Source: a virus. Taken from it: a stretch of 61,494 nucleotides of DNA. The first letter of the stretch is position 1. Each line of letters opens with the position of its first letter. A program made the translations under genes and the position numbers. The notes under the pieces were generated by a model. The model was not told where the DNA came from. It made no database searches and saw nothing but the letters and a program-made list of their open reading frames with translations. Location: IMG/VR virus record IMGVR_UViG_3300030099_003489, positions 1-61,494 of that record, one strand, 5' to 3'. Shown here in pieces: positions 34,773-54,130 of the stretch.

Positions 34773-34976
34773 TCATTGTAGTAGTACGCTTACTTTTCCT
34801 AGTGCATCGCTAAGTTCTTTCATTTCCTCAGTGGACATTTCATCCAAATCGGTATCTTCCATCTTCATTTCCATGTCTTCTAGTTCCCGAATAACGTTAG
34901 CAATATCCACTTTTAAGTGACTTCTAGCGCGTTCTCTGGTTCCATCATATTCTTTCAAAATACCTTCCCAAGTCAT
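34773..34976 (-). CDS. W-tag protein (MTWEGILKEY)
   Basis: 67 residues. The frame opens six codons upstream, but GAGTGATAAG lies directly before the internal ATG and makes MTWEGILKEY the likely start; this also puts the tag at the true N-terminus. The rest is acidic helix (ADVIRELED-like: NVIRELEDMEMKMEDTDLD). It follows a 58-residue tagged gene by five bases. Unknown function; likely a virion or assembly accessory. Confidence 0.6.
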   Translation of the reverse strand: MTWEGILKEYDGTRERARSHLKVDIANVIRELEDMEMKMEDTDLDEMSTEEMKELSDALGKVSVLLQ

Positions 34977-34980
34977 CTTA

Positions 34981-35157
34981 TCACTCATATTCAAACCTCT
35001 TGTTTAACGCATCTTTTCTTCTGTCACAGCCACAGTCTTTACCTGTCTTTTCTGAGATATAATCAACTGCCTTCTTTATCCCTGTAGCAGTAGTAATTCT
35101 CTCGATGGTATCTCCTAAGCCTTTGTCGTCTTTTAGAAGTGCATCTTTCCAACTCAT
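34981..35157 (-). CDS. W-tag protein with a CGC motif (MSWKDALLKD)
   Basis: 58 residues, overlooked by a 60-residue cutoff. It overlaps the upstream gene as ATGA. After the tag come two helices (TIERITTATGIKKAVDYIS) and a terminal D-C-G-C-D-R-R segment. The Cys pair could bind metal or be redox active. It is part of a chain of small tagged genes with tight spacing, which supports it being real. Confidence 0.6.
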   Translation of the reverse strand: MSWKDALLKDDKGLGDTIERITTATGIKKAVDYISEKTGKDCGCDRRKDALNKRFEYE

Positions 35158-35474
35158 TTCTTTTCCACCTTCTTTTGCTTAGGATAAATTAGTTTTCTCA
35201 TTTGTTCGTACAATACTTCGTAGTCCTTACGCACCTCTGCGGCAGATGCAAGTATTTCTAGGTTCTTCTCTTCAAAGACTTCTATCTTCTTCTGTAGTCT
35301 TTCATCCTTTTTCATATCCAGACTCTTGAATTCATCCAATAGTGAAGATAACTTAGTCATGTCCTGCCCAAAGAACTCAGAGGGTTGTGATGCCTGTAGT
35401 AGTTTTTTTAATCTCTTTCTCTTCTTGGAATCAACCTTTTCCAAAACCGAAGACTTGAGAATTTCCTGCCACAT
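35154..35474 (-). CDS. W-tag helical protein (MWQEILKSSV)
   Basis: 106 residues: tag, then a basic stretch (KKRKRLKKLLQASQPSEF) and a long coiled coil (KKIEVFEEKNLEILASAAEV) ending in YPKQKKVEKK. Its AAGTGATATT ribosome site contains the previous stop. It may be an internal head or DNA-binding protein. Family not recognised. Confidence 0.58.
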   Translation of the reverse strand: MWQEILKSSVLEKVDSKKRKRLKKLLQASQPSEFFGQDMTKLSSLLDEFKSLDMKKDERLQKKIEVFEEKNLEILASAAEVRKDYEVLYEQMRKLIYPKQKKVEKK

Positions 35475-35478
35475 AATA

Positions 35479-35736
35479 TCACTTCAATGCGTTACTTAGC
35501 ATACCAATAGCACCCAAAACATCGTCTAACGGACTATATCCGTATCCAACGTTAGTTTCTGTTGTTGATTTAATCCCTTCGGATTTCATCTCCTGTAAAA
35601 TAGACTCTAGACCTCTTAATGCGGTTTCTATTTTCTTTAGTAAATCTGGAGATAATGGAGCCGCTTGACCTGCTTCACGCATAGCCGCAAAGTTCGGGTC
35701 ACTTTCTATCTTAGGCGGTACTCTCTGCTTAGTCAT
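35479..35736 (-). CDS. Small acidic helical protein
   Basis: 85 residues, no tag. Helices LLKKIETALRGLESILQEM and PLDDVLGAIGMLSNALK flank a short linker. ATGA overlap with the preceding 586-residue gene. No family recognised; position suggests a small head accessory. Confidence 0.5.
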   Translation of the reverse strand: MTKQRVPPKIESDPNFAAMREAGQAAPLSPDLLKKIETALRGLESILQEMKSEGIKSTTETNVGYGYSPLDDVLGAIGMLSNALK

Positions 35737-37493
35737 GTTTCTGTGCCTCGTTGTCTACTTTGCCAATTTTCTGGGTTTTCCAAAATAGTCCTAACTCTTT
35801 CAGATAACAAACCAGCAAATGAGTCTTCTAAATCAGCGTATGACATGTTATTCTGCCTCAAAATACTCGGAGAAACTTGTATATGATTTGACGGTTCTAG
35901 GTTCTCATTGATGTATTTTGCAATATATGCTAGTTTACCATAGAAATCTCCGACTTTCTGTAACGACTCATCTGCCATGTCCTTGCCTTCTTGAGTGATT
36001 TTGTTTTGTTGCACATCTCTATCAGTAGGCATCACATCTTTCTTGTTTCTATATGTCTTCTCAGTTAGGAATAGTAGTTGTTGTATATGTCTATGTGAAT
36101 CTGCACCAGTAATGTAATTTACATCATCATCCGGGTCATTACTTTCTAGAATTCTCTCTAATTCTATCATGTCCCTCTCCAATTTAGGAACCTCACTTCT
36201 TGCAGAGCGTATTCTCTCAAATGTGTCTGTCATCGGTTCTCTGACCTTTTGAGGCAACATGATGTCCTTTTCCCTTAGTATAGTTCTCAATATCTGCCAA
36301 CCGTTCTGCCCATTGGAGTATGTGTCTAACAATACCTTCCTATCCTTTTTGTCTAGTTTGATTCCTTTGAAAACAGGAATTCTGTTTCCTTCGCTGTCCA
36401 TAGCGGGACTATCACCATATTCCGTCTTTCTCTTTACTGCATTCAGATATTGTTCCTTCTTGCTTCCCCTGAAATACTTCCTTATCAATATCTTCCAAAC
36501 GGTCTGGTAACTTTGTCCTGTGGCCTTTGTCTCCAGAAGTGTTCTCATCAAACTAGGTCCATCTCTTTGTTGCAAGGTGCGAGAATCTTCCATCTCACCG
36601 GATTCTGTTCGGTCTATACTATAGATTACCTTACCAAATATCTGTTGTGCCTTCTTCAATTTCTCCAGTTCTTCTTTTAATTTAGGTAGGATTCTCTCTC
36701 TTCCCTGTACCTCTATTCCTTGAAACATAGGAGACTGATAGGTTTTAATTCGCTCTTGAGTATCTCTTATCTTATCCTGTATCTCACGATTTAGTGGCCT
36801 TTGTAATCGCCTAACAGTATCCCACTTTGTGACAGTTTGACTAAGAGTATCATTTAATCTAAAATCTAGCATTGTTCTTCTTGCTTGTTTCAACTCGTTT
36901 TTTTGACTCTCGGTAACTTTGCTTTCTAGCATATCATACAGGCTCATTTCCTGTCCATCTTCTTCTGGTTCTTGCTCTGGTCTTTCTCTAGGTTGACTAG
37001 GAGGATTCATTTCTTGTATTGTTTCTAACTGTTTTATTGCATCTCTCACCGCTAACAGATTAGCATACTTTTGTTTTTGTGTTTTGCTTAACTTACCACT
37101 AGATATTTTTTCCTCGTAGAATGCATCTGGTTTTCTGAATCTAGATACTTCCTTCTTGTAATAATCTAGTCTTTTTTCAACTAATGCTAATACTCTTTCT
37201 AATGGTACTGACGTTGAGACTCTTTCTTTAGTTCCTAAAGGTTTAGTTCGTAGTCTTGTCGAAGATGACATTGGGGTTTCAAAAAACTCCTCCCTCTTCT
37301 TATCATAGAATTTCTGTTCTTCTTTTGTTCTCTTTTTACTGGGAACCCTTGTTATCTTTGGCTTTGGATTTTCTTTCTCTTTTTCTTCCTTTGTTCTCTT
37401 GACGTATTCTTCACTACGCTTTCTTCGTCCCTCCAAATACTCGTCAAGTTCCTTGTACTTGAGGATATCAAAGAAGGAGTCCTCTAAAACCAT
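35733..37493 (-). CDS. Large charged helical virion protein with FFDILK tag
   Basis: 586 residues, starting MVLEDSFFDILKYKELDEYL after AAGTGAGATAC. The tag FFDILK near the N-terminus is the phenylalanine form of the W-tag and also occurs in the protease/scaffold. The body is very rich in K, R, E and Q, mostly helix (EEYVKRTKEEKEKENPKPK; ERILPKLKEELEKLKKAQQI), with no enzyme motif. It lies beside the portal. An internal core-like or portal-associated protein is plausible; function unknown. Confidence 0.55.
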   Translation of the reverse strand: MVLEDSFFDILKYKELDEYLEGRRKRSEEYVKRTKEEKEKENPKPKITRVPSKKRTKEEQKFYDKKREEFFETPMSSSTRLRTKPLGTKERVSTSVPLERVLALVEKRLDYYKKEVSRFRKPDAFYEEKISSGKLSKTQKQKYANLLAVRDAIKQLETIQEMNPPSQPRERPEQEPEEDGQEMSLYDMLESKVTESQKNELKQARRTMLDFRLNDTLSQTVTKWDTVRRLQRPLNREIQDKIRDTQERIKTYQSPMFQGIEVQGRERILPKLKEELEKLKKAQQIFGKVIYSIDRTESGEMEDSRTLQQRDGPSLMRTLLETKATGQSYQTVWKILIRKYFRGSKKEQYLNAVKRKTEYGDSPAMDSEGNRIPVFKGIKLDKKDRKVLLDTYSNGQNGWQILRTILREKDIMLPQKVREPMTDTFERIRSARSEVPKLERDMIELERILESNDPDDDVNYITGADSHRHIQQLLFLTEKTYRNKKDVMPTDRDVQQNKITQEGKDMADESLQKVGDFYGKLAYIAKYINENLEPSNHIQVSPSILRQNNMSYADLEDSFAGLLSERVRTILENPENWQSRQRGTET

Positions 37494-37502
37494 GTATCTC
37501 AC

Positions 37503-37727
37503 TTAATAAAACGGTATATTTTCTCGATTGCCCTTTTTCTTTCTTGGGTTTATTCCAACGTTAGGGACTTCTTTGGGTGCTACTCTCTTTTCCTCGGTCT
37601 TCTGTGGAACTCCAATTGCAAAGTCCTTGCTAACTGTAATGTTAGAGTTATTTGCCCGTCTTTCTTCCATTCTTGCTTTATTGAGTTCTGCTCTCAATTC
37701 TTTTACTCCTCTCTTTTCTTCACTCAT
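37503..37727 (-). CDS. Small basic/disordered protein
   Basis: 74 residues: KELRAELNKARMEERRANN helix, then a Lys/Pro-rich tail (NVGINPRKKKGNRENIPFY). It overlaps the EF-hand-like gene. No tag and no recognised family. Confidence 0.45.
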   Translation of the reverse strand: MSEEKRGVKELRAELNKARMEERRANNSNITVSKDFAIGVPQKTEEKRVAPKEVPNVGINPRKKKGNRENIPFY

Positions 37728-37839
37728 CTTTTTTCCTCCTTAGTTCTTGGAAATCCTTTGCGTCAATGTCTCCATCATCATCCACATCAAGATTTTTCTT
37801 TTGCTTTTCTGTCAACTTCAATATTTTTTGCCATTCCAT
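37720..37839 (-). CDS. 39-residue W-tag protein with an EF-hand-type loop
   Basis: MEWQKILKLTEKQKKNLDV begins with the shared tag and runs into DVDDDGDIDAKDF, a textbook calcium-loop pattern (D-x-D-x-D-G-x-I-D-x-x-D). It ends LRRKKDE and its stop overlaps the next gene. It is too short for a paired EF-hand domain, so one loop per chain would need dimerisation or a dockerin-like use. The tag and the loop make coding likely in spite of its size. Calcium binding is inferred from the motif. Confidence 0.6.
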   Translation of the reverse strand: MEWQKILKLTEKQKKNLDVDDDGDIDAKDFQELRRKKDE

Positions 37840-37940: not shown

Positions 37941-39643
37941 CCAACCCGCCTCTCAGTTCTTCTGTCCACATTCTCATTTCCTGCTTCTCTTGGTAATCCT
38001 GTAAGTCTTTTATCTGGACCAACACTCATACTTGGTTTGGCTCTAGCGGCAGGTGGGTTTTCTTGAGGTTTTCCTTCACCCTCTCCTTTTACCTTAGCAG
38101 GTAGTCCCTCTTCCTCTAGAGTTGTATTTCTCTGTCCTGCCTCCATCATTTCTCCTAATCTAGATTGGTCTATGTTCGTACCTGCGTATGGGTCTGGTTT
38201 GAAATCTCCACCTCCACCTGCATCGGAACCCATTGCACCCTGTGCCTTACCTTCTCCTTCTGGTCTTTCCTTTGTAAAGATGAATCTACCCTCATCATCC
38301 ATATCTACCTCAAACCCTAGATTCTTTATTTGTCCTGCAATACCCACTTCGATTTCTCTCAGTCTCTTCTCAGCAACTTGGTCTTCTTCTTCTGATGGTG
38401 GTAGTTGTAGTTCCCAATCTGTTATTCCGAATTGCTCTGTGACAAATGGAAACACGTAATTATTCCAGATGGTCTGTGCCATTTCTACTGCTCTGTTTGT
38501 AACTAGAATCTGTAGTCCTTCGTTGTTTAACCCACCACTAGTGGATGGGTCATTCTGGAATATCTTACTAACACCATAGAATGCAGAAATCCTGTCTCTC
38601 AGGTCTTCCTTGACTGCAATGTAATCCATTTCCTTGATGCTATCCATGAAGTTGACCCACTCAACTGAACCTTTTCCTCCTTCTGCTTCTATACCCATTA
38701 CAGGAATGAAGTGTGGGTCTTGCTCCATTTTCTCCTTGACGCTACGCCAAAATGATTTCATCGAATCCATATTTCTAGTTTGAACCGCAAGCAATCCTCT
38801 AGGCATACGTGCTTTGGTGTATGATGAATTGACGTAGTTCTCCATTGCAATTAGAGTAGTAATGTGATTCCACAGTGTTAGAACAGGAGATTGCCCATAG
38901 AGCCTACTTGGTGAGTACTTGCTGAAATGCAATACTTCTCCCTTGATGAAATATTGGTCATCTCCCTTTGCTCTATTGACATAATGAACAGGATGTAGTC
39001 TGCCTTGACATTCTTCACACATGCCACCTGCTTCTTCGGAGAAATAGTTTCTGTGTCTGAGACAAGTGTATCCATTAACACCCTTCTGTCCCAACTCATC
39101 AGCAAAGATATGCATAGTTACAGGGTCGCCTCTGTATATCTCCTTGATTCGATGCATCTTGATTTCACTATCACTATCCATGAAGTATTCCTTGACTAAA
39201 ACGAGATAAGCATCATCCATGATGTTCAAGTCATCCTCTAGTTCCTTCAATACGTCTATGAATAACTGCTCGGATTTGTTTACGTACCTCTCCATGAACT
39301 TATGAGCGTAAGTCAATTGTTTCGGGTCCGGTTTCTTTAGATTAGTTGAGCCACAGTCAATACATTGCTTAGTAGCACTTTTGTGTTCCTTACCACAGTC
39401 TGCACATTTGACCGTGAATTTCTCTTCCCACACGTAACCTCTTCTGAATATCTCATTCTTCAACTGCGTAATACAAGTTCTCAGAATTACGGACTGAGTT
39501 GACATATGAAACAGAATCGGAGCCGTAATCATATAGTTCGTGCTTCTTTCCTGTATTCCGGGATTGTACACGTTTCTGTCTACAGGTTTAGGAGTTGTTC
39601 TCCTAAACAGGTTAGTTATGCTAAATCGTCTTTTTTCTACCAT
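37937..39643 (-). CDS. Portal protein with inserted zinc sites
   Basis: 568 residues. The core is portal-like: N-terminal wing (TAPILFHMSTQSVILRTCIT), a clip/stem region with DRISAFYGVSKIFQNDPST and GLNNEGLQILVTNRAVEMAQ, and a disordered P/G/E-rich C-tail. Two unusual metal sites are present: C80-x2-C83 ... C94-x2-C97, a zinc ribbon, and C194-x2-H197 ... C209-x2-C212. The gene sits between the LAGLIDADG protein and the head assembly genes, downstream of the large terminase. It forms the dodecameric DNA gate of the procapsid. The zinc sites probably stabilise wing loops; this is inference. Confidence 0.85.
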   Translation of the reverse strand: MVEKRRFSITNLFRRTTPKPVDRNVYNPGIQERSTNYMITAPILFHMSTQSVILRTCITQLKNEIFRRGYVWEEKFTVKCADCGKEHKSATKQCIDCGSTNLKKPDPKQLTYAHKFMERYVNKSEQLFIDVLKELEDDLNIMDDAYLVLVKEYFMDSDSEIKMHRIKEIYRGDPVTMHIFADELGQKGVNGYTCLRHRNYFSEEAGGMCEECQGRLHPVHYVNRAKGDDQYFIKGEVLHFSKYSPSRLYGQSPVLTLWNHITTLIAMENYVNSSYTKARMPRGLLAVQTRNMDSMKSFWRSVKEKMEQDPHFIPVMGIEAEGGKGSVEWVNFMDSIKEMDYIAVKEDLRDRISAFYGVSKIFQNDPSTSGGLNNEGLQILVTNRAVEMAQTIWNNYVFPFVTEQFGITDWELQLPPSEEEDQVAEKRLREIEVGIAGQIKNLGFEVDMDDEGRFIFTKERPEGEGKAQGAMGSDAGGGGDFKPDPYAGTNIDQSRLGEMMEAGQRNTTLEEEGLPAKVKGEGEGKPQENPPAARAKPSMSVGPDKRLTGLPREAGNENVDRRTERRVG

Positions 39644-40998
39644 TATGCTATCACACCTTCAAGTCTATCCATTTCTACCATCTTGGAATTCCCATGCAAT
39701 TTTGCAACGGTGTCAATGTTAATGTCATATTGTGAAAAGTCGTATCCCACATGGTCCTTGTGGTTTTCGTATTTCATCAATTTGAATAGTTCGTCCTTTC
39801 TCTGGTCATACCACTCTGCCTTCTTATGGGATTTCTTCATTCGTATGAGTTCTAGAAGAATCTCAGCATTTGCCTTCTTCATCTTGAAGTGAGGTAAGCA
39901 CTTTGTTAGTAGTTCCTTTACGTCATCCATAGCATAGAAGTTCAATCTGTTTACTGGTCTTGTGTCCTGTGGTGATTTCTGGTCTAAATGCAGTCTGCCT
40001 ACTCCAAGAGACTTATGCATCTCCGTCATGAATGCCTTTCCTCTATCTCCAGTAGCAACAAGACCAACTCTAGGATTGTAGTTCTTGTCCATTGTGATGT
40101 ATCCGTCTGAGTCAATGAATGCGGCAGTATAGGCATAGATATCTTTCTTTATTTCATCGCTAAATTTGTACAATTGTCCTCTAACATTCGTGATGTTTTG
40201 ACTAGTAGCCATTTTGGATATGATAGTGGGTGATGTTTTCTTTTGTAGGGGTCTGGGTAGTCTGTCATGTATCTGCCTGACTGAGATACCGGGGTCATCA
40301 CAAACGTAAGTGAGAATCTGTTTCTTAATCTCATCTTTCTCAGACCAGTTAGCAAGATATTTCTTCTGATTCTTGAGTATTTTCTTGAATTCCTTCTTAG
40401 CCGATGTCATTTCCTTCGTCAATACACTATGGTCATATCCATATCTCAAACCACTACGGTCAATCTTGGCTTCCCAATACTTACAAAGAGTATCTATCAC
40501 TTCTCTCCGAGTATCTTCATCATCTATCTTAGATAGAGAGAGTAAGTTATCCTCTGAGCAAACCATGTCTTGCACTATTGGCTTGTACTTCTTGACCCAA
40601 TATATTTCATCAATGCTCTTACTCAAATGGTCACTGTATGCGTCAATGAGATTGTCAATTGACTGTGTAAATTCTACTTTTGTGTCACCTTTTAGAGTTC
40701 TTCTGTGGTATCTGAGGTCTTTCACGATATCTGGAATTGACTTGTCCTGTATCGTGTACTTAACCAACGGACTCTCTAAGGCTTTACGAGCCTCAGAGAG
40801 AGAAACCTTGTTTTCTCTAGCATAGTTTTTCTCGATGTCAAAATGACTACTGAGTGGTTGTTCTCCTAACCAATTTAAAATCATTAAATCCTTAGCCTTT
40901 TGTTGAGCCTTTTCTTTTTCATTATCAAACTCTTCAGCATTTTCTGCCAAATCACCGTACCTTTCTGATAAATCTCTAAGTTCATCGGCTTTTGACAT
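39643..40998 (-). CDS. Winged-helix protein with a LAGLIDADG endonuclease-like domain
   Basis: 451 residues, starting MSKADELRDLSERYGDLAEN after TTGGTGATGAAA; that GGTGA contains the terminase stop. Residues about 225-280 look like a winged helix (QILTYVCDDPGISVRQIHDR ... SKMATSQNITNVRGQLYKF). The C-terminal 160 residues contain AAFIDSDGYITMD at about 292-304, the LAGLIDADG signature with both acidic residues, followed by NRLNFYAMDDVKELLTKCL and a helix typical of the fold. There is no intron or intein boundary nearby: both flanking genes are intact. It could be a domesticated homing endonuclease serving in genome processing or packaging, or a free-standing homing gene. Confidence 0.7.
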   Translation of the reverse strand: MSKADELRDLSERYGDLAENAEEFDNEKEKAQQKAKDLMILNWLGEQPLSSHFDIEKNYARENKVSLSEARKALESPLVKYTIQDKSIPDIVKDLRYHRRTLKGDTKVEFTQSIDNLIDAYSDHLSKSIDEIYWVKKYKPIVQDMVCSEDNLLSLSKIDDEDTRREVIDTLCKYWEAKIDRSGLRYGYDHSVLTKEMTSAKKEFKKILKNQKKYLANWSEKDEIKKQILTYVCDDPGISVRQIHDRLPRPLQKKTSPTIISKMATSQNITNVRGQLYKFSDEIKKDIYAYTAAFIDSDGYITMDKNYNPRVGLVATGDRGKAFMTEMHKSLGVGRLHLDQKSPQDTRPVNRLNFYAMDDVKELLTKCLPHFKMKKANAEILLELIRMKKSHKKAEWYDQRKDELFKLMKYENHKDHVGYDFSQYDINIDTVAKLHGNSKMVEMDRLEGVIA

Positions 40999-41003
40999 TT
41001 TCA

Positions 41004-42443
41004 TCACCAATTAAGACCGAATATACCTTCGGCTACGGGTTTCGGAGATGGAGGGGCTTCATCAAAGATTCCCATGTCATCCAACAAAACAAACTGTTCT
41101 GATGGATTTTGTGTGGCGGCATTAGCAAGTGCTAAACTCATCACCAAATCGTCATGTGCGCCAACTCCCTCAAACTTTCCAGATTGGGTAATTGAGAACA
41201 TGGACAACTCTTCGATTAGTTTGTTCATTACCCTCCTACTAGCCTCATCCCCATAGGGGAACCTCATTTTACCATTCTCGATATTCATCTGGAGATTGAG
41301 AATTATCTCCTGTTTCTTCTTTCTAGTGGTATTGAAATCATGTATGTTCAAATCGGAGATGTTCCTCAGTTCTTGAGTGAATGCCTTAGCGAACGTATTA
41401 GTCTCATAGAATATTGCCTCTGGTTGGAATATCTTACCTATCAGTCTAATCTTATCCAGATTCTCTCTGAACTCAACATTCTTAGCACGGTCAATATGAA
41501 CGATAGTCTTGTTCATCTCGGCATCTACCTCAATGACCGTTATCACGTTATAGTCACCATCGGTTGAGATAGCCGGGTCAACTCCGACATAGTATTTGTA
41601 TCCCTTATCCTTCCTATGTCCTAGTTTTAACACGTAGTCCTTGTTCTTACAAGCCTCTACGAAATCTGGATTGAACAAAGATGTCCCGGTAGAGATGGGA
41701 ACACATAGGTATTCTCTTGTAAACTTGAGAGAACCTATCTCTGCTTTTCTCTGCATGAGTGCATCGTAGTCCCATCTATCAGGCCATAGTGGTTCATTCA
41801 ATGCGTTCAAACATGGGTATCTTCTAACTGTATATGCAGGGTTTTCCTCTAATTGTGCGAAGATGTCGGTATATGTGAATGGCGTTCCTATCATCCTTAG
41901 ATTAGCCGTATGATGTAGAGTGGGTATCATATCCCCGAAGAACCAATCCGTCACTCTTTGAATAGCAACAAGGCTGAACTCCTTCAAAGGGTCGTCAATG
42001 ATAATCTCCTGTGGGTGAAGACCACGAATCTGAGAACCTACCGACCTCTCAAGAACTGCATTACCATTAGTCAGTTGAATGTTACCGATAGCCCATCCAC
42101 GACTAGGTTTAAATTGCTTTAGTGCCGGATGATTGAAGTATCTGTCAATCTCCCTCATGTGAACTAGTGTCTGCTTCTGGTTAGATGAGATGTATAGCAT
42201 CTGATACGGTGGTTCTTGGAATATTAGATTCCACACTACCCAACTGTGCATGAATACTGATTTTCCGTGGTCACGACTACAAACTATAACAGTCCTGTCA
42301 GTGGAACTCATTGTATCCAACCATTCTTCCATGTATTTCGGAAACATCATTCCGAGTACGTTCTGAAAGAAATATGGGAAGGAGGTCTTGGATATCTCCA
42401 TATCCATCTCAGACATGAAATCCATGCCTTCTAACTCAACCAT
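41004..42443 (-). CDS. Terminase large subunit
   Basis: 479 residues. ATPase: Walker A-type CSRDHGKS at 55-62, motif near LYISSNQKQTLVHMREIDRY, Walker B IIIDDP at 147-152, coupling motif near IGTPFTYTD. RNase H-like nuclease: YYVGVDPAISTDGDYNV with Asp289, and a C-terminal HDDLVMSLALA. The protein pumps DNA into the procapsid and cuts concatemers. CGGTGAATCTAT upstream holds the previous stop. Length and domain order match the family. Confidence 0.93.
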   Translation of the reverse strand: MVELEGMDFMSEMDMEISKTSFPYFFQNVLGMMFPKYMEEWLDTMSSTDRTVIVCSRDHGKSVFMHSWVVWNLIFQEPPYQMLYISSNQKQTLVHMREIDRYFNHPALKQFKPSRGWAIGNIQLTNGNAVLERSVGSQIRGLHPQEIIIDDPLKEFSLVAIQRVTDWFFGDMIPTLHHTANLRMIGTPFTYTDIFAQLEENPAYTVRRYPCLNALNEPLWPDRWDYDALMQRKAEIGSLKFTREYLCVPISTGTSLFNPDFVEACKNKDYVLKLGHRKDKGYKYYVGVDPAISTDGDYNVITVIEVDAEMNKTIVHIDRAKNVEFRENLDKIRLIGKIFQPEAIFYETNTFAKAFTQELRNISDLNIHDFNTTRKKKQEIILNLQMNIENGKMRFPYGDEASRRVMNKLIEELSMFSITQSGKFEGVGAHDDLVMSLALANAATQNPSEQFVLLDDMGIFDEAPPSPKPVAEGIFGLNW

Positions 42444-42449
42444 ATAGAT

Positions 42450-45230: not shown

Positions 45231-46989
45231 TCAGTATTCCTCCTTCATCTTCTAACCATTTCTTAGTAGGTGTACCAACAGTCTTAGATTCCTCTACCAT
45301 AACTTCTTTAATAGCGTTTATGAAAGACTTACGAATTCTATCATAGTTTTCTTTTACTCCCTTTAGTAAAGTATCAATGCCATCACTAAATGTAGGTTGT
45401 CTTCTCATGTTAGACATAACCATGTTCAGAGAATTAGTACCAGTATAGGCATACTCTATTTCACGTAATAGTTCTATTACATCTTCGACTCTCAATCTGT
45501 TAATATCGTATTGCTCATCTTTTAGAAGATGAAACAGGGTTTTTAGTTTCAATGATGCAACAGTTGACCTTTCATCACCATACTTCATTGAAAGCAAATC
45601 TTTCATCTTACCCGCCCTGAAAAATAAATCCTGTAGTATCTCCGTGCTATCTGGTGTTGCTCTCCTTGTGCCATCATTCAATTCCTTCATGTTAGAGAAT
45701 GCCGCCCTTCTTGTCTCATCCTTGAAGAAATTTCTAACATCCTTCGTGCTAGTTAGATTTCCAATTGGCAAGGCACTACGAATGTCTGCATCTGCTTGTC
45801 TTCTTTCATCTCTCCTATTGGGGTCATAATGTATGGTTTGCCAATCATTCAGCGAGTTCCACTTGTCACTAGATACCTTAGATTTTCCAGTTACATCAAA
45901 GGACTTTATCCAATTATTCCAATTTTGCTTGAGTTTTCCGGGATTACCATCTTTATCTTCATCGTTCTCTATTTCCTCAAAGAACTTACTTAGGTTTCTT
46001 GTTCTACCTACGGTTGGTATAGCCTTTGAACCAGTTTTTCTATAACCCGACTGTACCTCTACAAGTTCGTTGAATTTTTCTTGTACATTAGCAGGAACTT
46101 CAGCAGAAGTAGTACCACTCATTGCCCTTTTCTTTCTTCGCTCCTCATCACCTAATACACCGATTTCCTTAGTTGCTTCTTTTCCCGCATCGGTTATCTT
46201 TCTGAATGCTAAGTCCCGTATTGCCATTGCTTGTTGCGTTGTTCCCTTTACCTCGATATTGAAATCATCACTATCTAAATCGAAGTCCTCCTTATCTAGA
46301 ATGTAGTTTAACGCAGGTGGCATTCTGATTGTAGATTTCTGCGTAATAGACTTCAACGGCTGATTCTCAAAGGTCTTAGGGAACAGTTCTCTTCTTTGCT
46401 TTCCAGAAAACTGCTTATCTAGAATAGTAAATTTGAAGAATTTTATGGCTTTTTCTGCTGTGATTCTATCTGGACTAGTCTGAGGCTCCATCTCTGATGG
46501 AGGTTTGAAATCTAAAACTTGTCCTACTACACTAGAATGTAATGAAGGGTTATCCCTAACGTAAGCATATATTTTTTCTTTCAAGTTTAACTGTCTAATC
46601 ATATTCTTGAATTTTCTCCTATTCTCAAAGGTCTGCGCTCTCTGAGTATTCTTACCAGCAACTAGGTCTTCTAACGGTTGGTGTTCTCCTTCTAGATACC
46701 GATTGATGAATTGAGCAACTCTATCTCTGTTGATATCTCTTTGACGATATCTTCCTTCATCTTCCAATTCCGTCAATACCTGTTTCGCTCTAGCGATGAT
46801 TGGTGAGTACATTTGCTCATCAAGCCCAGTTGAAGGCCAATCAAACTCCACAATTTTCTTCATTGCGGTTTTTACTGGTCGTGCTTTTCTTTGATTGTTC
46901 TTAACATCCTGAATTAGTTTGTCCTTTATTTCATCCGTAGCAACATCTGTTGTGTTTGGATAACTTGCTTTCAAGATTTCATGCCACAT
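45208..46989 (-). CDS. Large W-tag protein (MWHEILKASY)
   Basis: 593 residues. It begins with MWHEILKASYPNTTDVAT directly after GGGTGATAGT, which contains the stop of a zinc-ribbon gene. The remainder is charged and mostly helical (RKFKNMIRQLNLKEKIYAYV; EKFNELVEVQSGYRKTGSK), with no recognised fold. It shares its tag with the small proteins upstream, suggesting a common destination, possibly the capsid interior. Function unknown. Confidence 0.58.
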   Translation of the reverse strand: MWHEILKASYPNTTDVATDEIKDKLIQDVKNNQRKARPVKTAMKKIVEFDWPSTGLDEQMYSPIIARAKQVLTELEDEGRYRQRDINRDRVAQFINRYLEGEHQPLEDLVAGKNTQRAQTFENRRKFKNMIRQLNLKEKIYAYVRDNPSLHSSVVGQVLDFKPPSEMEPQTSPDRITAEKAIKFFKFTILDKQFSGKQRRELFPKTFENQPLKSITQKSTIRMPPALNYILDKEDFDLDSDDFNIEVKGTTQQAMAIRDLAFRKITDAGKEATKEIGVLGDEERRKKRAMSGTTSAEVPANVQEKFNELVEVQSGYRKTGSKAIPTVGRTRNLSKFFEEIENDEDKDGNPGKLKQNWNNWIKSFDVTGKSKVSSDKWNSLNDWQTIHYDPNRRDERRQADADIRSALPIGNLTSTKDVRNFFKDETRRAAFSNMKELNDGTRRATPDSTEILQDLFFRAGKMKDLLSMKYGDERSTVASLKLKTLFHLLKDEQYDINRLRVEDVIELLREIEYAYTGTNSLNMVMSNMRRQPTFSDGIDTLLKGVKENYDRIRKSFINAIKEVMVEESKTVGTPTKKWLEDEGGILNDNSETE

Positions 46990-46993
46990 ACTA

Positions 46994-47155
46994 TCACCCT
47001 ATCACTTGTCTGAAACCACATTCAGAACATTCATACTTTGCCCTTCCTGTTTTTTTCGCTCTGTTAGAATAACTTCCCGGTTTCATACTAAAAGTTCCTT
47101 TGGCCCCACACTTAGGACAATTCAATCCTTTTCTTACTCCCTCAAACCAACTCAT
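46994..47155 (-). CDS. 53-residue W-tag zinc-ribbon protein
   Basis: MSWFEGVRKG is followed by CPKC and, about 26 residues later, CSEC, a four-cysteine zinc ribbon (ending GFRQVIG). It overlaps the upstream gene as ATGA and is coupled to the downstream gene, so the frame is well supported although it is short. Such ribbons often bind nucleic acid or bridge proteins. Confidence 0.68.
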   Translation of the reverse strand: MSWFEGVRKGLNCPKCGAKGTFSMKPGSYSNRAKKTGRAKYECSECGFRQVIG

Positions 47156-47415
47156 TCTCTCTTCTCCTCTAATTGAGGATGAAACTTCAAAGTCACCTTC
47201 TTAGCATCCTTCTTGATAGATTTACCATCAACTAGAACCTCAACTGGATATGGCTTATGCTTGTCATACCAATATGCAACTTCATAACCTCCATTTTTCA
47301 AAAGTTCAACAAGTAGTCCTCTATCATATTCTTTATCTTCTGCTTGTAGGACTTTCTGAGTTCCTCTTGGTAGAGTTAAATCAGATTTTTTCTTAATGAT
47401 AGATTCCCAACTCAT
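47152..47415 (-). CDS. W-tag protein (MSWESIIKKK)
   Basis: 87 residues: tag, then a small alpha/beta domain (RGLLVELLKNGGYEVAYWYD; PYPVEVLVDGKSIKKDAKK). ATGA overlap on both sides. It looks like a compact ferredoxin- or ubiquitin-sized fold, but no family is recognised. Confidence 0.58.
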   Translation of the reverse strand: MSWESIIKKKSDLTLPRGTQKVLQAEDKEYDRGLLVELLKNGGYEVAYWYDKHKPYPVEVLVDGKSIKKDAKKVTLKFHPQLEEKRE

Positions 47416-47897
47416 TGCATCTTCTCCTTCATTTTCTCAGCGTGTTGTATTCTCTCTTCGTTTGAATAGAACTGTGCAGTAGTTTCCATTAATTGATTAA
47501 ATTGTTCAGGTGAAGCGTAGTTAACCCCATCACTCGTAAAGTCATCATAACCGACAAACTCTAGTTCTCCAATCAATTCATCTATTGCTTCCTTAACTTC
47601 TTTATCCGAAATCAAAGTATAGTCTAACTTACCCATACCCGCCATTGTTTTTTCAGGGTCATCTTTCAAGTCAATGTCTTCTTCGGTTTCTTTTGCTTGC
47701 TTTATTGTAGGTTTTCCTATATCTTTCATAGGTCTTTTTGTATTGGCCTCCGAACCGTAGACAGCATAAACTACGGCTTGATTAAAGTAAGGTGTCCAGT
47801 AGCCCGTATCTTCTTCTGATTGGCTTCCTTGATATAAAAAGGGAGTTTCTGTTCCACCAACGGAATATGGCTTCTTCAATATGGTTTGCCAACTCAT
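47412..47897 (-). CDS. W-tag protein (MSWQTILKKP)
   Basis: 161 residues. The true start is the internal ATG, which overlaps the small terminase stop as ATGA and puts the tag at the N-terminus. The middle is acidic and disordered (KQAKETEEDIDLKDDPEKT); the end is a helical domain (KEAIDELIGELEFVGYDDF ... MKEKMQ). Unknown function. Confidence 0.55.
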   Translation of the reverse strand: MSWQTILKKPYSVGGTETPFLYQGSQSEEDTGYWTPYFNQAVVYAVYGSEANTKRPMKDIGKPTIKQAKETEEDIDLKDDPEKTMAGMGKLDYTLISDKEVKEAIDELIGELEFVGYDDFTSDGVNYASPEQFNQLMETTAQFYSNEERIQHAEKMKEKMQ

Positions 47898-48550
47898 TGC
47901 ATCTTTTCCTCCATTTGCTTTCTGATATCTAGCCAAACATCCGGATGGTTTTGTGCTAGAACCTCCTTGATAACTTGCATCTGATGCACGACAATTGTGT
48001 CTTGTCTCTTATGCACCAGTTTACCCTTGAACTCCATTAGATATTTCAAACTCTCTCTAACCTCTTTCGCTAGTTTGGTAAGTGAGTCTATTGCCTTTGG
48101 ACTCATATCATCATCATTCATTAGAACGTCCAACTTGGAATTCAAGTGACCTATGTTGTGACTTAGGGTATCTATCTCATTGACTTCCCTAGTTGCAATC
48201 AAGTTCGCCGCAGATTGTTGTACTAGGGGTTGAAGATGCTTCTTCGTATGACGTAGAACCTGTTGCTCGGAACAACCCAACATCTCAGAAACCTCAGTTG
48301 CGGAAATCTCACCTTCGTACAATGACTTCTCTAGTTGCAATCTGTTAGGATGCGTACATAGAACACACCTAGTGTTTGAGGAATCAACATAGTGTCCCAT
48401 GTGGTTTCTCTGGTGTTTGGCAGAAGTTCCACTAGGCCAACCCATCTGCCTGTCTAATTCCTCACAAGAGATGTTCATATCCTCGATGTCCTTCTCAAAT
48501 ATCTCCCTGTCCTCATGTGTGCAAAGTCTGCATCTCTTTCTGATAATCAT
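47894..48550 (-). CDS. Probable small terminase subunit with two zinc/HTH repeats
   Basis: 218 residues from MIIRKRCRLCTHEDREIFEK; this ATG overlaps the previous stop as ATGA. Two tandem units share C-x2-C-T-H, a helix-turn-helix core and a distal pair of histidines: CRLCTHEDREIF...KHQRNHM and CVLCTHPNRLQL...RHTKKHL. The C-terminal 100 residues are helical (DSLTKLAKEVRESLKYLMEF), suited to ring formation. A small terminase recognises the packaging site; HTH plus an oligomerisation helix and proximity to the large subunit support it. A plain regulator cannot be excluded. Confidence 0.6.
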   Translation of the reverse strand: MIIRKRCRLCTHEDREIFEKDIEDMNISCEELDRQMGWPSGTSAKHQRNHMGHYVDSSNTRCVLCTHPNRLQLEKSLYEGEISATEVSEMLGCSEQQVLRHTKKHLQPLVQQSAANLIATREVNEIDTLSHNIGHLNSKLDVLMNDDDMSPKAIDSLTKLAKEVRESLKYLMEFKGKLVHKRQDTIVVHQMQVIKEVLAQNHPDVWLDIRKQMEEKMQ

Positions 48551-49311
48551 GACGAAGCCTCCAGTATCTTCTTCCATTGTTCTCCCATTCTCTTTTGTTC
48601 AGGGTCTGTAGTAGAAGATTGTAGGACATCAACCCATTCTGCAATCTTTGCTTTGTTATTGATAGGTTTACCCTCCATCATATTCTGTTGGGCTTCTGTT
48701 AGCATCATGTTTACTTTTGCCGCTATTACCGCTTGTGCTTCTGGATACGCAGAACTTGATGGTGGTTTGTAATTAACCGCGCTTTGAATTACTGGTTGTA
48801 TTGCTTCTCCTGCTACGTCCTTTACCTTTTTTGCTCCCGACACTACTTTGTCTTTAGCACCCTGTATTTTTTGTTGTAGGTTAGTGACTTCTCCATATCC
48901 TTCTCTATCACGTAATCTTGGGTTGCTAATGTCCGGCTTTCCTTCTAATCTTCTTCGTTTGAGGTCTGGACTATCTCCAGTATCGTATTTGTCATACTCA
49001 TCTAGTATTTCTTGGTCTGTTCTCTTTTTCTTCTTGCCTGATGTTTCCTTTGTGTTACCTTCATCTCTCTCTATTATAGGACCGAAAGTACTTGATAGAT
49101 TACCCAATGATGCTTCTCTTCGTTTAGTTCGCTTTTCAGCAAATTCCGCATTTTCCTCATTTTCCTCTGCTAACCTTCTTTCAGCCTCAGACACCCCATC
49201 GTCTACCTGCTGTTCTACATCCCTACGTATATTCTCATCAAGAAGGTCATCCTCATCCTCATTCTTGAGAACTCTAACCCAAGAGCCATCATCCCAAGAA
49301 GAAAAAGACAT
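48547..49311 (-). CDS. Acidic protein with W-tag-like ends
   Basis: 254 residues, starting MSFSSWDDGSWVRVLKNED and ending EQWKKILEASS, so tag-like W-x-x-[IVL]-L-[KE] peptides occur at both termini. The middle is low complexity and charged (EQQVDDGVSEAERRLAEENE; GAKDKVVSGAKKVKDVAGE). The AGGAGGGATAG ribosome site contains the previous stop. Possibly a minor scaffold or linker; function unknown. Confidence 0.52.
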   Translation of the reverse strand: MSFSSWDDGSWVRVLKNEDEDDLLDENIRRDVEQQVDDGVSEAERRLAEENEENAEFAEKRTKRREASLGNLSSTFGPIIERDEGNTKETSGKKKKRTDQEILDEYDKYDTGDSPDLKRRRLEGKPDISNPRLRDREGYGEVTNLQQKIQGAKDKVVSGAKKVKDVAGEAIQPVIQSAVNYKPPSSSAYPEAQAVIAAKVNMMLTEAQQNMMEGKPINNKAKIAEWVDVLQSSTTDPEQKRMGEQWKKILEASS

Positions 49312-49315
49312 GCCT

Positions 49316-49492
49316 CTATCCCTCCTGAAACCTTCTGCATTGTCCTCTATTGTCTACTGTAACTTCAGGTAATGTGCAATTTCTGTTTTCATTCTGTATG
49401 CAAGACGTAGCCTCACACAATGATATCTTGCATTCTGCCTCTCCTACTGGAAACATAGGCCCGACTTTTCTAATCCTATCTTCCCAAGTCAT
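49316..49492 (-). CDS. Cys-rich W-tag protein (MTWEDRIRKV)
   Basis: 58 residues. AGGTGATAAA directly precedes this ATG, so it is preferred over an upstream one; that site contains the stop of the previous gene. After the tag come four cysteines in KISLCEATSCIQNENRNCTL and QCRRF, suggesting a small metal or disulfide fold. Unknown role. Confidence 0.58.
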   Translation of the reverse strand: MTWEDRIRKVGPMFPVGEAECKISLCEATSCIQNENRNCTLPEVTVDNRGQCRRFQEG

Positions 49493-49496
49493 TTTA

Positions 49497-49853
49497 TCAC
49501 CTAAACTCAAAATATACTATTGGCGTTTCATCTGATTTATCCTTATAGACACTATCGGGTATAAAATTACCAAAAGCAAATGCTTTTCCAGATACATCTG
49601 TCTGAATTTCATCGTCAAACACAGTACCATCGTCAAAAATAATCCTTGCTACTCCTACACCCATTTCTCTAATGTGATTTTCTCTAGGGACTACTTGAAA
49701 ACTCCAATTAATCATACATTGTCCATCTCTTTCAGTTCCATCTTTTTCTTCCCATCTTAAAATTTCTACTCTACTTTCAAAACCCTCTATAGTGACTACT
49801 CCACCGTTTTGCTTTACCTCTAGACTTTTTCTAACTATATCTTCCCAAGTCAT
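49497..49853 (-). CDS. W-tag protein (MTWEDIVRKS) with a beta domain
   Basis: 118 residues: tag followed by a beta-rich domain (GGVVTIEGFESRVEILRWEE; GVGVARIIFDDGTVFDDEI) ending PIVYFEFR. The final AGG TGA forms the ribosome site of the next gene. No family recognised. Confidence 0.55.
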   Translation of the reverse strand: MTWEDIVRKSLEVKQNGGVVTIEGFESRVEILRWEEKDGTERDGQCMINWSFQVVPRENHIREMGVGVARIIFDDGTVFDDEIQTDVSGKAFAFGNFIPDSVYKDKSDETPIVYFEFR

Positions 49854-49857
49854 TTAA

Positions 49858-50112
49858 TCACCTAAATAATTCTGCAAGAATTTCAAGATTGTCAATCATC
49901 TCTCTATCAGCAATTTTTACCAATCTTTTTTCATCATCTTCTATGCGTTCCAATACTGATTCAGTAAGTAATTCATGCCCCTCAACTACTGCCGGGGAAA
50001 AACCTTCTTCAATAGCCATCTTTATTTCTCTTACAATTTCAGCCGCCAACATTAACTTGTTGAAGCCTTCATTACTTCCAAAAGAATCCTTGAGTAAATT
50101 TTCCCAACTCAT
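49858..50112 (-). CDS. W-tag helical protein (MSWENLLKDS)
   Basis: 84 residues, all helix after the tag (FNKLMLAAEIVREIKMAIEE; VLERIEDDEKRLVKIADRE). The start overlaps the previous stop as TGATG and its own AGG TGA end sets up the next gene. Unknown role. Confidence 0.55.
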   Translation of the reverse strand: MSWENLLKDSFGSNEGFNKLMLAAEIVREIKMAIEEGFSPAVVEGHELLTESVLERIEDDEKRLVKIADREMIDNLEILAELFR

Positions 50113-50915: not shown

Positions 50916-50917
50916 AA

Positions 50918-51139
50918 TTACCTATCCAAATCATCTAAAAAATCTAAATTAATATGGCCGTAGCCTACTTTCTTCAACGCATTACGAATGAAAGATTTTT
51001 TATTTTTAATTGAACCCTTGCTTGAAGCGAATTCATGCAATAGTTTAGCGTAGTGTCTTGCTTTACCTAAACTATCTTGCATTCCTAATTTATCCCATTG
51101 AGGATATTTTTTTGATTTGACTATTTCCTGCCAACTCAT
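50918..51139 (-). CDS. W-tag protein (MSWQEIVKSK)
   Basis: 73 residues; after the tag a compact, basic helical domain (ARHYAKLLHEFASSKGSIK; FIRNALKKVGYGHINLDF). ATGA overlap with the previous gene. No family recognised. Confidence 0.57.
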   Translation of the reverse strand: MSWQEIVKSKKYPQWDKLGMQDSLGKARHYAKLLHEFASSKGSIKNKKSFIRNALKKVGYGHINLDFLDDLDR

Positions 51140-51462
51140 TCTTCATCACTTAGTTTATCTTTCCTCGGTTTAATAGTATAATTACCTATGAATTTTTCAT
51201 CAGCCCGCTTACCACGTGCATCACCATATTTGGCTTCATTCTCTAACTCATCGTCTATTTTATCCAATGCCCTTCGGATATTTTCCATAAGATAGTCTGT
51301 GTTCACTGGCAGGTCATCTAAATCAGCCAATTTCTTTTCTAATTCGTTAAAATGATAGTATACTTCTTTTAAGCGCGTAGGTGTCAACATTGTAGCATAT
51401 CTACTCATCTCCGATGGCGGTCCCTGATATTTTGCTTTCTTTATTTCTTTTTTCCAACTCAT
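51136..51462 (-). CDS. W-tag protein (MSWKKEIKKA)
   Basis: 108 residues: tag, then a helical pair (RLKEVYYHFNELEKKLADL; MENIRRALDKIDDELENEA) and a charged tail. ATGA overlaps on both sides. Unknown. Confidence 0.57.
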   Translation of the reverse strand: MSWKKEIKKAKYQGPPSEMSRYATMLTPTRLKEVYYHFNELEKKLADLDDLPVNTDYLMENIRRALDKIDDELENEAKYGDARGKRADEKFIGNYTIKPRKDKLSDEE

Positions 51463-51641
51463 TCTTTCATCGCCTCAATTTTAGCCTTCAATTTTTCAAG
51501 TTTATCTAGCGTTTTTTGATGTATTGAGTTAGGAACTTTCCCGTATGCGTTAACAGGAATTTTGTATCCATCTACCGTTATATGTCTAACGACCTTCTCA
51601 GGGTCAGGCTCTTGTTTGTTCAGTTTTTCTTTCCAACTCAT
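51459..51641 (-). CDS. W-tag protein (MSWKEKLNKQ)
   Basis: 60 residues: tag, a short beta region (VVRHITVDGYKIPVNAYGK) and a helix KTLDKLEKLKAKIEAMKE. ATGA overlaps at both ends. Unknown. Confidence 0.55.
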   Translation of the reverse strand: MSWKEKLNKQEPDPEKVVRHITVDGYKIPVNAYGKVPNSIHQKTLDKLEKLKAKIEAMKE

Positions 51642-51736
51642 TTTTCATCACTCCAATTCCGATAACAGTAGGGGCAACCTGTTGGCGCACCTACGTTATT
51701 ATTATCTAAACTTATTCCAGCACCACAACAACTCAT
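51638..51736 (-). CDS. 32-residue Cys-rich microprotein
   Basis: MSCCGAGISLDNNNVGAPTG is followed by CPYCYRNWSDEK: two adjacent cysteines and a CxxC, a likely single zinc site. It overlaps both neighbours as ATGA, which is the main support for translation. No tag in the usual position. Function unknown. Confidence 0.5.
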   Translation of the reverse strand: MSCCGAGISLDNNNVGAPTGCPYCYRNWSDEK

Positions 51737-52905
51737 CTTACCAACACCGTTCTCCAATCCATCTTAGTAGTTGTATCTGGTGCTTCCTCAACCATTCCTT
51801 GTGTCTGTGCCGTAACCTCTTGCTCTTCGTTCCTCTGGAAACCTGCCATATTAGCAATCTGATTGATTTGGTTCTTGGGTATTGCTAGGTACACGGACCT
51901 TACACCTACTGGATAATCTGCATTGACTGATTCCATTATTCTCAACATCAATTGGCTATCTCCCTCATCCTGTAGGTCTACTTTGTTCTTCAAGAAGAAA
52001 TTCCTAGCCTTAGTCGCTGAGAAGTTACCTGCCGAAGTTCGATAACTACTATCCTGTACTGCTCTTGTGAACCAATCTCTAACAGGTTCTAACTCATTGA
52101 ATATTGCCTGTGCCGCACCTAGACCCTCAATGGCTATTGGTGTAGATTCAAGAACATCCATGACTCCTTCAACTTCAAGTGCATCAGTAACGATAGTCAA
52201 TAGAGAATCTCCAACACCCTCAAACAACTTGTCTCCATCACCATACAATGCTTGCCACATAGGGGGTTCTGCCGTATCTGGTTGGTCGCTGTACCAATCA
52301 GAATTCACAGCATCCATCTCAGCCTCTTTTCTCTTTATCTCTCTCCTATAGTCAACATAGGTCTGAGTTCTGTAATGCCCATAGATTACACCCTTTCTGG
52401 TTCTGTGTCTGGGATTCCCGTCTTTGTCAACTAGAACCTCGCCATCTTTTTCCATAGGACTTGGATTCCAACCTTTGATGTCACTTTGCCAACTCATGTT
52501 TCTGGGGTTCATCTTACTACCATCTGCACCCTCATTATCCATCACGTTCTTTACTGACTGTAAGAGTTCCTTAGTCTGTGGTCCCATGTCTCCCCCGAAA
52601 ATGGTTTCACAAGCAGGTAGCAGATACGAGCCGCCCTGCCCCGACTTCTTCTGCTCTGCTTCTCTTGCTTCTCCCCCCTTACCATATACGATTCTCTTAC
52701 TGTTGCCATGTTTCAGAAGACTGTCCCAAAGACTAGTTTCCTCTCTCATTACACCTATGTCCTCACCAGACAATTCCTCACAACGGTCCTTCCAATTGTC
52801 ATACCTCTCCTTGACATTACTGTAGTCAAAGTTAACTTCAACATTGTATGGACCAACACGATAGGTATTGTCTTTCTTAACCATGATTAATTCCCAAGCC
52901 CCCAC
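51733..52905 (-). CDS. Protein with several internal W-tag-like peptides
   Basis: 390 residues if the GTG start is used (MGAWELIMVKKDN, itself tag-like); 383 from the next ATG. Tag-like peptides recur inside: SLWDSLLKHG, NMSWQSDIKGW and PMWQALYGDG, and the C-terminus is MDWRTVLVR. The C-terminal 150 residues contain a beta-alpha region (LLTIVTDALEVEGVMDVLES; RSVYLAIPKNQINQIANMAG). This is the clearest case of the tag used repeatedly in one chain. It could be a hub that gathers or mimics tagged cargo; no family is recognised. Confidence 0.55.
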   Translation of the reverse strand: MGAWELIMVKKDNTYRVGPYNVEVNFDYSNVKERYDNWKDRCEELSGEDIGVMREETSLWDSLLKHGNSKRIVYGKGGEAREAEQKKSGQGGSYLLPACETIFGGDMGPQTKELLQSVKNVMDNEGADGSKMNPRNMSWQSDIKGWNPSPMEKDGEVLVDKDGNPRHRTRKGVIYGHYRTQTYVDYRREIKRKEAEMDAVNSDWYSDQPDTAEPPMWQALYGDGDKLFEGVGDSLLTIVTDALEVEGVMDVLESTPIAIEGLGAAQAIFNELEPVRDWFTRAVQDSSYRTSAGNFSATKARNFFLKNKVDLQDEGDSQLMLRIMESVNADYPVGVRSVYLAIPKNQINQIANMAGFQRNEEQEVTAQTQGMVEEAPDTTTKMDWRTVLVR

Positions 52906-53624
52906 TCTATCTCAATTTCATGTGTCCAATCCTTTGGTTCTGTAGAATTATGGCAGTCAATTATGAATTCATCCACTTCATTGACATTAATCCTATAATT
53001 ACCTGAGTTTACGCTATTTTTTATTTTCAGCGCATCAGGTTTTGTGGCTTCTGTAGTGTCAACTCTCAATCTTATGTCCAAAGGAGAATAATCCCTGTCT
53101 GTCATTCTGTAAGACTTTGGGCCACCTTGCTCATAGCCTTGACCCGGATTATATTTTTCACCAAAATTATTATGCTCATAATCTATGTTAAAATCATAAG
53201 TCATACTTGTGATAGTCGTATAGACATCAATTGGGGCCGTCTGACCTTTTCCACTAGTATCTATTGTAACATTGCCTTTCAGAACAAGATTAGTGATAGT
53301 CGTATCGTCTTCTACGGAGTCAAATCTGCTAGGTTTATCTTCACCGGGTTCCTCTCTATACCTTCTACTCCATACTTCTGGAATATTTTTCATCTCAACA
53401 CTAAAGCGCGGTTTATCCATGTCAAATTCTACTGGTTTACCCTTCTTGTCTTCTAAGTCATCAAAGATGTCTCTCTTCTTCACCTTATGCTCAAACAAGT
53501 AGTCTGATGCATCATCAACGGAACTCCACTCATGCTCAGACAAATCATAATTATCAGCAACTTCCTCAAGGTCATCTATAGCCTCATCTACAGGCTCTTT
53601 CTTGAACAAATCAAACCATTTCAT
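52887..53624 (-). CDS. W-tag beta-rich protein (MKWFDLFKKE)
   Basis: 245 residues. Tag MKWFDLFKKEP, an acidic helix (AIDDLEEVADNYDLSEHE), then a long beta domain (TITNLVLKGNVTIDTSGKG; RINVNEVDEFIIDCHNSTE). ATGA overlap with the first gene of the operon. Unknown. Confidence 0.57.
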   Translation of the reverse strand: MKWFDLFKKEPVDEAIDDLEEVADNYDLSEHEWSSVDDASDYLFEHKVKKRDIFDDLEDKKGKPVEFDMDKPRFSVEMKNIPEVWSRRYREEPGEDKPSRFDSVEDDTTITNLVLKGNVTIDTSGKGQTAPIDVYTTITSMTYDFNIDYEHNNFGEKYNPGQGYEQGGPKSYRMTDRDYSPLDIRLRVDTTEATKPDALKIKNSVNSGNYRINVNEVDEFIIDCHNSTEPKDWTHEIEIEWGLGN

Positions 53625-54130
53625 CGTCTTGTCACTCTCGCTCCACTAACACTATCACCATCATCTAAATCTGGACTGGTTAATATTCTTTCTACATAAT
53701 CCATATTTAGAGGACTTGGAAAAGTCAATTCTCCTTCTCTTCCTCTAAAGTAAGGGTTATTTGGAAATTCACTCTTTCTCTGGTCATACAGTTCCATAAT
53801 ATTTCTTTGCATCGCTTTCCAATCAAAGCCCATCAACCATTCTCTGACTCCCTTTGCAATTGCACTATTGGGGATTCTCTTGTCCGTCACTAAATTGGTT
53901 ATTTTTCTCGTATAATCATCTAAATTCTCTCTGTATTCCTTAACTGATGTGTAAATTGGACCCCATTCTTCAGGTACGGATGAAAATTCCTTAGTGCGTG
54001 AATCTCTTTTTGGTGTAAACACTAATTTCTCTCCAAAATTAACCATTGAGTTAAGATAATCGCCTATATCGTTTAACACATTGAATAATTCTAAGGATGA
54101 GTCTACTTTCACTATGTCAAACCATCCCAT
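53621..54130 (-). CDS. First late gene; W-tag protein (MGWFDIVKVD)
   Basis: 169 residues and the promoter-proximal gene of the late operon. After the tag it is helical (LFNVLNDIGDYLNSMVNFG; WKAMQRNIMELYDQRKSEF). It lies about 95 bases downstream of the proposed TATA box and overlaps the next gene as ATGA. Being first, it should be strongly transcribed. Family not recognised. Confidence 0.57.
   Translation of the reverse strand: MGWFDIVKVDSSLELFNVLNDIGDYLNSMVNFGEKLVFTPKRDSRTKEFSSVPEEWGPIYTSVKEYRENLDDYTRKITNLVTDKRIPNSAIAKGVREWLMGFDWKAMQRNIMELYDQRKSEFPNNPYFRGREGELTFPSPLNMDYVERILTSPDLDDGDSVSGARVTRR

Follow-up and report, generated by a model that had tools for sequence, protein, structure and literature searches.

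A short peptide of eight residues, with the consensus roughly M-S-W-x-x-I-L-K, begins many late proteins of otherwise unrelated sequence in a 61.5-kb virus record (IMG/VR IMGVR_UViG_3300030099_003489, positions 1 to 61,494, hereafter the window) and in its relatives, and probably serves as a capsid-targeting sequence (CTS). The window encodes a tailed virus, whose S78 prohead protease, SU10-like major capsid protein (MCP), portal, large terminase (TerL), ATP-dependent DNA ligase and tail genes are located on the minus strand from about 54 kb down to 6 kb. A search of viral contigs with the portal recovered 190 relatives, the longest of 101 kb, and 762 distinct tagged proteins were found. Briefly, the explanation that we consider probable as a whole comprises docking, release and delivery of cargo. 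In the interior of the growing procapsid, cargo would dock by the short amphipathic core [ST]-W-x-[DE/N]-[IV]-[LIV], probably in the place that also receives the scaffold C-terminal tail MSW-x-[DE]-I-[HN]; the scaffold itself presumably arises from a second start nested in the protease gene. Once assembly is complete, a cut by the S78 prohead protease probably follows behind lysine 8 (between K and x in ...I-L-K-x), which would free the cargo in the head for delivery with the DNA.

Sixteen solid N-terminal tags were identified in the window by reading the DNA with inspection of the start sites. All of them lie on the minus strand, as does every other feature of the window given below, and the higher coordinate of each tagged gene is its start. 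The tagged genes encode a 169-residue protein beginning MGWFDIVK (53621-54130), a 245-residue protein beginning MKWFDLFK (52887-53624), and proteins beginning MSWKEKLNK (51459-51641), MSWKKEIKK (51136-51462), MSWQEIVK (50918-51139), MSWENLLK (49858-50112), MTWEDIVR (49497-49853), MTWEDRIRK (49316-49492, with a weak DUF1540 match), MSWQTILK (47412-47897) and MSWESIIK (47152-47415). They continue with a zinc-ribbon protein (MSWFEGVR, 46994-47155), a large protein of 593 residues (MWHEILK, 45208-46989), a 39-residue dockerin/EF-hand peptide (MEWQKILK, 37720-37839), a protein beginning MWQEILK (35154-35474), a 58-residue protein with a GLGD..DCGC domain (MSWKDALLK, 34981-35157) and a protein beginning MTWEGILKE (34773-34976).

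An earlier note on this DNA had listed some nineteen tagged late genes, and these 16 stand together with one F-type variant, a large protein (35733-37493) that begins MVLEDSFFDILK (FFDILK) and whose relatives begin MSFMDILK, MNFFDLLK or MDILRK. Two entries fared less well. The GTG-start peptide MGAWELIMVK (52905) is doubtful because the tag of this family is mostly C-terminal, also in the window gene, which encodes a large head-module protein (51733-52884) that ends in MDWRTVLVR (51736-51762). The FFDILK of the protease is the edge of its S78 domain and no cargo tag. A further variant can be added to the list: the protein of 48547-49311 has SWVRVLK at residues 11-16 and ends in WKKILEASS. The reading starts had also been described as fixed by ribosome sites. 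This holds for most of them, with a Shine-Dalgarno (SD) match of at least 5 bases at the tag ATG; the starts at 54130, 53624, 51462 and 50112 score only 3-4. Two tags, MTWEDRIRK and MTWEGILKE, require an internal start, and each gene has one, at 49492 behind aggtgat and at the ATG at 34976, where two earlier starts are also possible.

The tag is far more frequent than expected by chance and is confined to the head module. Within the window, 13 of 33 late genes match a loose form of the pattern, compared with 0 of 28 other called genes. Among the 906 genes called in eight long relative contigs, the pattern ^M.{0,3}W..[ILVMT].[KR] at the gene start was counted inside and outside the head module, defined as the genes on the same strand from -25 to +10 kb of the portal. 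Inside the module it begins 83 of 280 genes and outside it 3 of 626, so that early genes, a control suggested by the earlier note, and tail genes are nearly free of it. The nominal p value of 1e-42 overstates the contrast, as these are related genomes and the limits of the module were drawn once the tags had been seen. The strict N-terminal tag occurs in none of 555 TerL, TerS-like, portal, HNH, ligase, MCP, protease and 926-residue proteins of the loci. Each genome carries the tag on 5-17 unrelated proteins, and orthologues in related magroviruses mostly keep it (69 of the 84 members of the 35154-35474 family, by the loose pattern). Neither of the refuting outcomes of the earlier note that sequence could probe, loss of the tag in related genomes and an equal frequency in early genes, was seen. 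We also considered that chance together with misread start sites might produce such a pattern. The few bacterial-phage matches to the DNA pattern, all from one unrelated family (MSWKEIFKDSND), are the point on its side; the same pattern behind internal methionines occurs in only 11 of 4632 cases, and a single relative (L162) has 18 of 24 genes tagged within one 14-kb stretch, which refutes this reading and leaves it a negligible probability. On these counts the N-terminal tag is confirmed as real, and no chance reading survives.

The motif is selected at the protein level. Among 326 genes chosen by M-x-W alone, position 6 is I, V, L or T in 89%, position 7 is L, I, V or M in 97%, and position 8 is K or R in 90% (295/326); past residue 8 no residue dominates, and the motif ends sharply. 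Without the tag, the bodies form 344 sequence clusters, of which 238 have a single member, and an alignment of 127 body-cluster representatives shows the consensus MSWxxILK and hardly any conservation after it. A cause at the nucleotide level, either a shared cassette at the start that enhances translation or the recent duplication of a single gene start, could be read from Ser2, encoded by AGT in 345 of 374 tagged genes. However, AGT at this position is favoured in untagged genes as well (159/234). Furthermore, the 762 tagged proteins use all six codons for Leu7, all three for Ile6 and both for Lys8, in ratios roughly like those of the bodies, and copies of the motif occur at C-termini. Codon diversity and C-terminal copies led us to reject the nucleotide-level cause, which we regard as very improbable.

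The tag can also be followed on a single domain. The GLGDTIE..TGIK..GKDCGC domain of the 34981-35157 protein is tagged in 10 of 10 magrovirus contigs, with the prefix MSWKx(x)LLKEDK or similar, and the genes adjoining it in these ten contigs are tagged too. Outside magroviruses, an M-x-W start precedes this domain in 0 of 70 contigs, and the protein typically starts directly, for example with MKSKGLGDT. The tag is therefore a portable prefix. The 45-residue GLGDT..TGIK..GKDCGC domain itself is widespread in unrelated viruses (L250-L329) and has a weak match to phrog_27568. Tandem arrays of tagged paralogues were observed in G011 (L098, 11931-14500), L162 and L237, with the starts MWFxILKNRLLIKPKTQLRVQDN, MxWxxILKNIQISS and MWEDIIKVQVS, which suggests local amplification of cargo genes. 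In seven members of the 35154-35474 family (L126, L135, L165, L177, L221, L224 and L226), the tag is replaced by M[TS]WDYYxEGxxFxI/L-K.

Loading into the procapsid, as the earlier note had proposed, gains support from a scaffold-like open reading frame (ORF) that ends in the same M-S-W-x-D-I core. The S78 protease gene (30416-31696) contains an in-frame methionine at 31153, directly behind the protease domain, with a near-perfect SD (ggaggtga) that is conserved across the magrovirus relatives. The SD score at this methionine is at least 5 in 55 of 55 relatives, compared with 72 of 647 other internal methionines of the same genes, and where relatives lack the ATG, gaggtga precedes TTG, GTG or, in two that are near-identical, ATT. 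The nested ORF (30416-31153, 245 residues) has the C-terminal motif MSWDDIH (30437-30457), and in the AlphaFold model of the whole protease-gene protein residues 316-394 form a long helix, with a predicted local distance difference test score (pLDDT) mostly above 70. In the aligned proteases the C-terminal W, D/E and I/V/L are each present in 49 of 49 sequences, forming the pattern W-x-[DE]-[IVL]-[HN] with [ML]-[ST] nearly always before it. The nested ORF looks like a scaffold gene of the lambda Nu3 type, though it has no PHROG match and no sequence relation to Nu3-type scaffolds was found. When a profile built from N-terminal tags only was run over 214,428 positions, its best non-N-terminal match was the C-terminus of the protease/scaffold. 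A second protein ends alike: a putative coiled-coil protein of 76 residues (34533-34763) terminates in MSWDEIHKMAGNLK (motif at 34557-34577), and the scaffold-like ending is present in 70 of 86 relatives of its family. On these grounds we propose that the cargo copies the tail by which the scaffold would dock.

The same distribution bears on where the tag binds. As tagged genes flank the portal and TerL, the peptide might instead bind outside the capsid interior, at the portal, packaging motor, neck, virus factory or membrane, and organise late proteins there. The motif is found on the scaffold-like ORF and the 76-residue protein and not on portal, TerL or tail genes, and 5-17 unrelated proteins per genome would hardly be needed for binding to a motor or neck. 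We consider binding outside the interior improbable and retain targeting to the procapsid interior.

The C-terminal copies of the motif separate docking from release. In most members of the 51733-52884 family the tag lies at the C-terminus, for example SWNEILK, DWRTVMK, SWHEYLW or, directly before the stop, SWKMIL. These copies keep the tryptophan and the two hydrophobic residues, whereas position +5 is K or R in only 11 of 21 distinct peptides, compared with 295 of 326 at N-termini (p = 2e-5), and the scaffold tail has no lysine at the place of tag K8. This sets a docking core apart from a lysine that matters at N-termini alone, which is what cutting by the protease behind K8 would predict. 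In addition, the MCP (gene 28962-30410) has a near-invariant L-L-K in its N-terminal linker, which is rich in glycine; this L26-L27-K28 (30327-30335) is a candidate maturation site, with K28 present in 39 of 39 sequences. The nested scaffold tail, the C-terminal tag copies and the MCP L-L-K all go beyond the earlier note.

A closely related explanation accepts targeting to the procapsid interior with a tag that is never cut, K8 being only part of the docking helix. The C-terminal copies, which share the W-x-x-phi-phi core without any tag to remove, fit this explanation, as does the possibility that the ILK stretches of the protease are structural strands. However, the basic residue at position 8, so much stricter at N-termini than at C-termini, the lysine-free scaffold tail, and the L-L-K in a flexible MCP linker argue against an uncut tag, to which we assign a real but minor probability. 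Removal of the tag at lysine 8 by the protease has, in our estimate, about an even chance.

Several observations weigh against the proposed docking, release and delivery. The FxILK stretches at both edges of the S78 domain (31637-31651 and 31178-31192) are almost fully conserved, but residues 26-174 of the protease match positions 15-157 of the 165-position Pfam S78 profile, so that these flanks lie inside the usual domain boundaries and may be strands of the fold; they are weak evidence for cutting, and we no longer treat them as proof of it. A structure model of the MCP was set aside for placing K28, as its pLDDT was 42. One clade of the 35154-35474 family keeps only M-[ST]-W plus a displaced ILK-like stretch, splitting the W part from the ILK part. 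No magrovirus virion proteomics or structure was found in a literature search. Moreover, the tag is absent from the head genes of HVTV-1 and vir519, a haloviral and a methanogen-virus relative by MCP; the system is therefore not general to archaeal tailed viruses, and we rejected it as a feature of that whole group.

By gene content the window is a magrovirus-like archaeal tailed virus. Very abundant in the ocean, magroviruses are to our knowledge known through metagenomics only, and no function is known for most genes of their head module. For the magroviruses of Poseidoniales (Magrovirales), a family B polymerase (PolB) divided into N- and C-terminal parts (PolB-NTD/CTD) is listed, and the marks of the group are long tailed-virus genomes of marine archaea, their own split PolB, an ATP-dependent ligase and a Druskaviridae-related MCP (PMC10768690). 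Each of these marks was found here: relative contigs are about 80-101 kb long, PolB is present in 9 of 10 relatives, mostly as two separate matches, the ligase is encoded, and the window MCP shares 25% identity with its counterparts in HVTV-1, HCTV-1 and HCTV-5. The assignment follows from the portal relatives, their split PolB and this MCP likeness. Cpn60 (GroEL), reported for the type virus, is absent from 10 relatives; it is an auxiliary gene that membership does not require. In HVTV-1 (L123), gp113, gp115 and gp116 show a different short repeated module, VYxxSPDEAPEG...GGxxYY, present in several head proteins.

Three further observations concern neighbouring genes and contigs. An open-ended giant ORF at 1-6041, tail or adhesin-like and matching relatives of 1376-3414 residues, seems to leave the left end of the window, and the plus-strand ORFs listed there are therefore probably spurious. 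Between TerL and the portal lies an HNH endonuclease-like gene (39643-41010) with 85 members in relatives, unusually stable for a homing-type gene. A scan of genome contigs yielded three magrovirus contigs only (L245-L247), all inside one GTDB metagenome-assembled genome labelled Maricaulis sp., probably by a binning error.

Searches of Pfam and NCBIfam with the 127 body representatives returned only scattered single matches. The few recognisable cargo domains are a PAP2 phosphatase, GNAT, a dockerin-like calcium loop, zinc ribbons and one weak metalloprotease match. Such sparseness fits fast-evolving internal or ejected proteins and proves no function; delivery of the cargo into the host is no more than plausible. 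If the tag is a capsid address, the virion-internal proteins of these viruses could be read straight from sequence, and the zinc ribbons, GNAT, PAP2 phosphatase, dockerin-like calcium loops and many orphans would give a large number of candidates for ejected effectors of Poseidoniales. Archaeal tailed viruses would then have evolved the loading of proteins by a short cleavable peptide on their own, explicitly through mimicry of the scaffold, and a short portable tag would be at hand for loading capsids. The broadest version, in which this archaeal virus group uses one address code shared by the scaffold and hundreds of unrelated, fast-changing cargo proteins, with copying of the scaffold tail, release at K8 and a swappable protein set sent into Poseidoniales cells, stands in our judgement a little short of even. 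No description of the tag was found in the magrovirus paper PMC10160649 or in the other openly licensed literature searched.

The comparison with phage T4 internal proteins made in the earlier note holds in form. T4 IPII and IPIII begin with a short shared peptide, MKTYQEFIAEA, and the T4 CTS (IPI-IPIII, Alt) is common to different cargo, just as the tag is common to different head-module proteins here. Both place an aromatic and two hydrophobic residues at i, i+3 and i+4 (Y4, F7 and I8 in T4; W3, I6 and L7 here, as in M-S-W-Q-E-I-V-K). By published mutagenesis of the T4 CTS, residues 4 and 7 mainly serve targeting and residues 8 and 10 processing, and Alt is processed at both termini (PMC9026906); a targeting half followed by a processing half is likewise proposed here for the tag. 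Unlike T4, which has a handful of such proteins, this group has hundreds of cargo clusters with 5-17 tagged genes per genome, the scaffold's own C-terminus bears the same core, and the host group is archaeal. The protease matches Peptidase_S78/S78_2 with no match to the T4-type protease, and the tag differs from MKTYQEFIAE, so it is not the T4 CTS by descent. In phage P1, the N-terminal 30 residues of DarB suffice for packaging into the head and 9 do not, and the Dar proteins share no N-terminal consensus by BLAST (PMC9024508); an N-terminal segment thus sends cargo into the head in both systems, with an explicit consensus only here. The head of the giant Salmonella phage SPN3US likewise contains many internal proteins; its prohead protease cuts N-terminal propeptides off several of them and itself loses a propeptide at its C-terminus (PMC10052503). 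Unlike the tag, the propeptides there are mostly long (20-254 residues) and are cut after A-x-E. The nested ORF has a counterpart in arrangement. In phage lambda the protease gene C holds an in-frame start from which the scaffold Nu3 is made, and the SD statistics point to such a start within the protease gene here too. The scaffold-like ORF of the window has a C-terminal tail similar to the cargo tag, and a tryptophan tail that the cargo mimics would be new compared with the lambda type.

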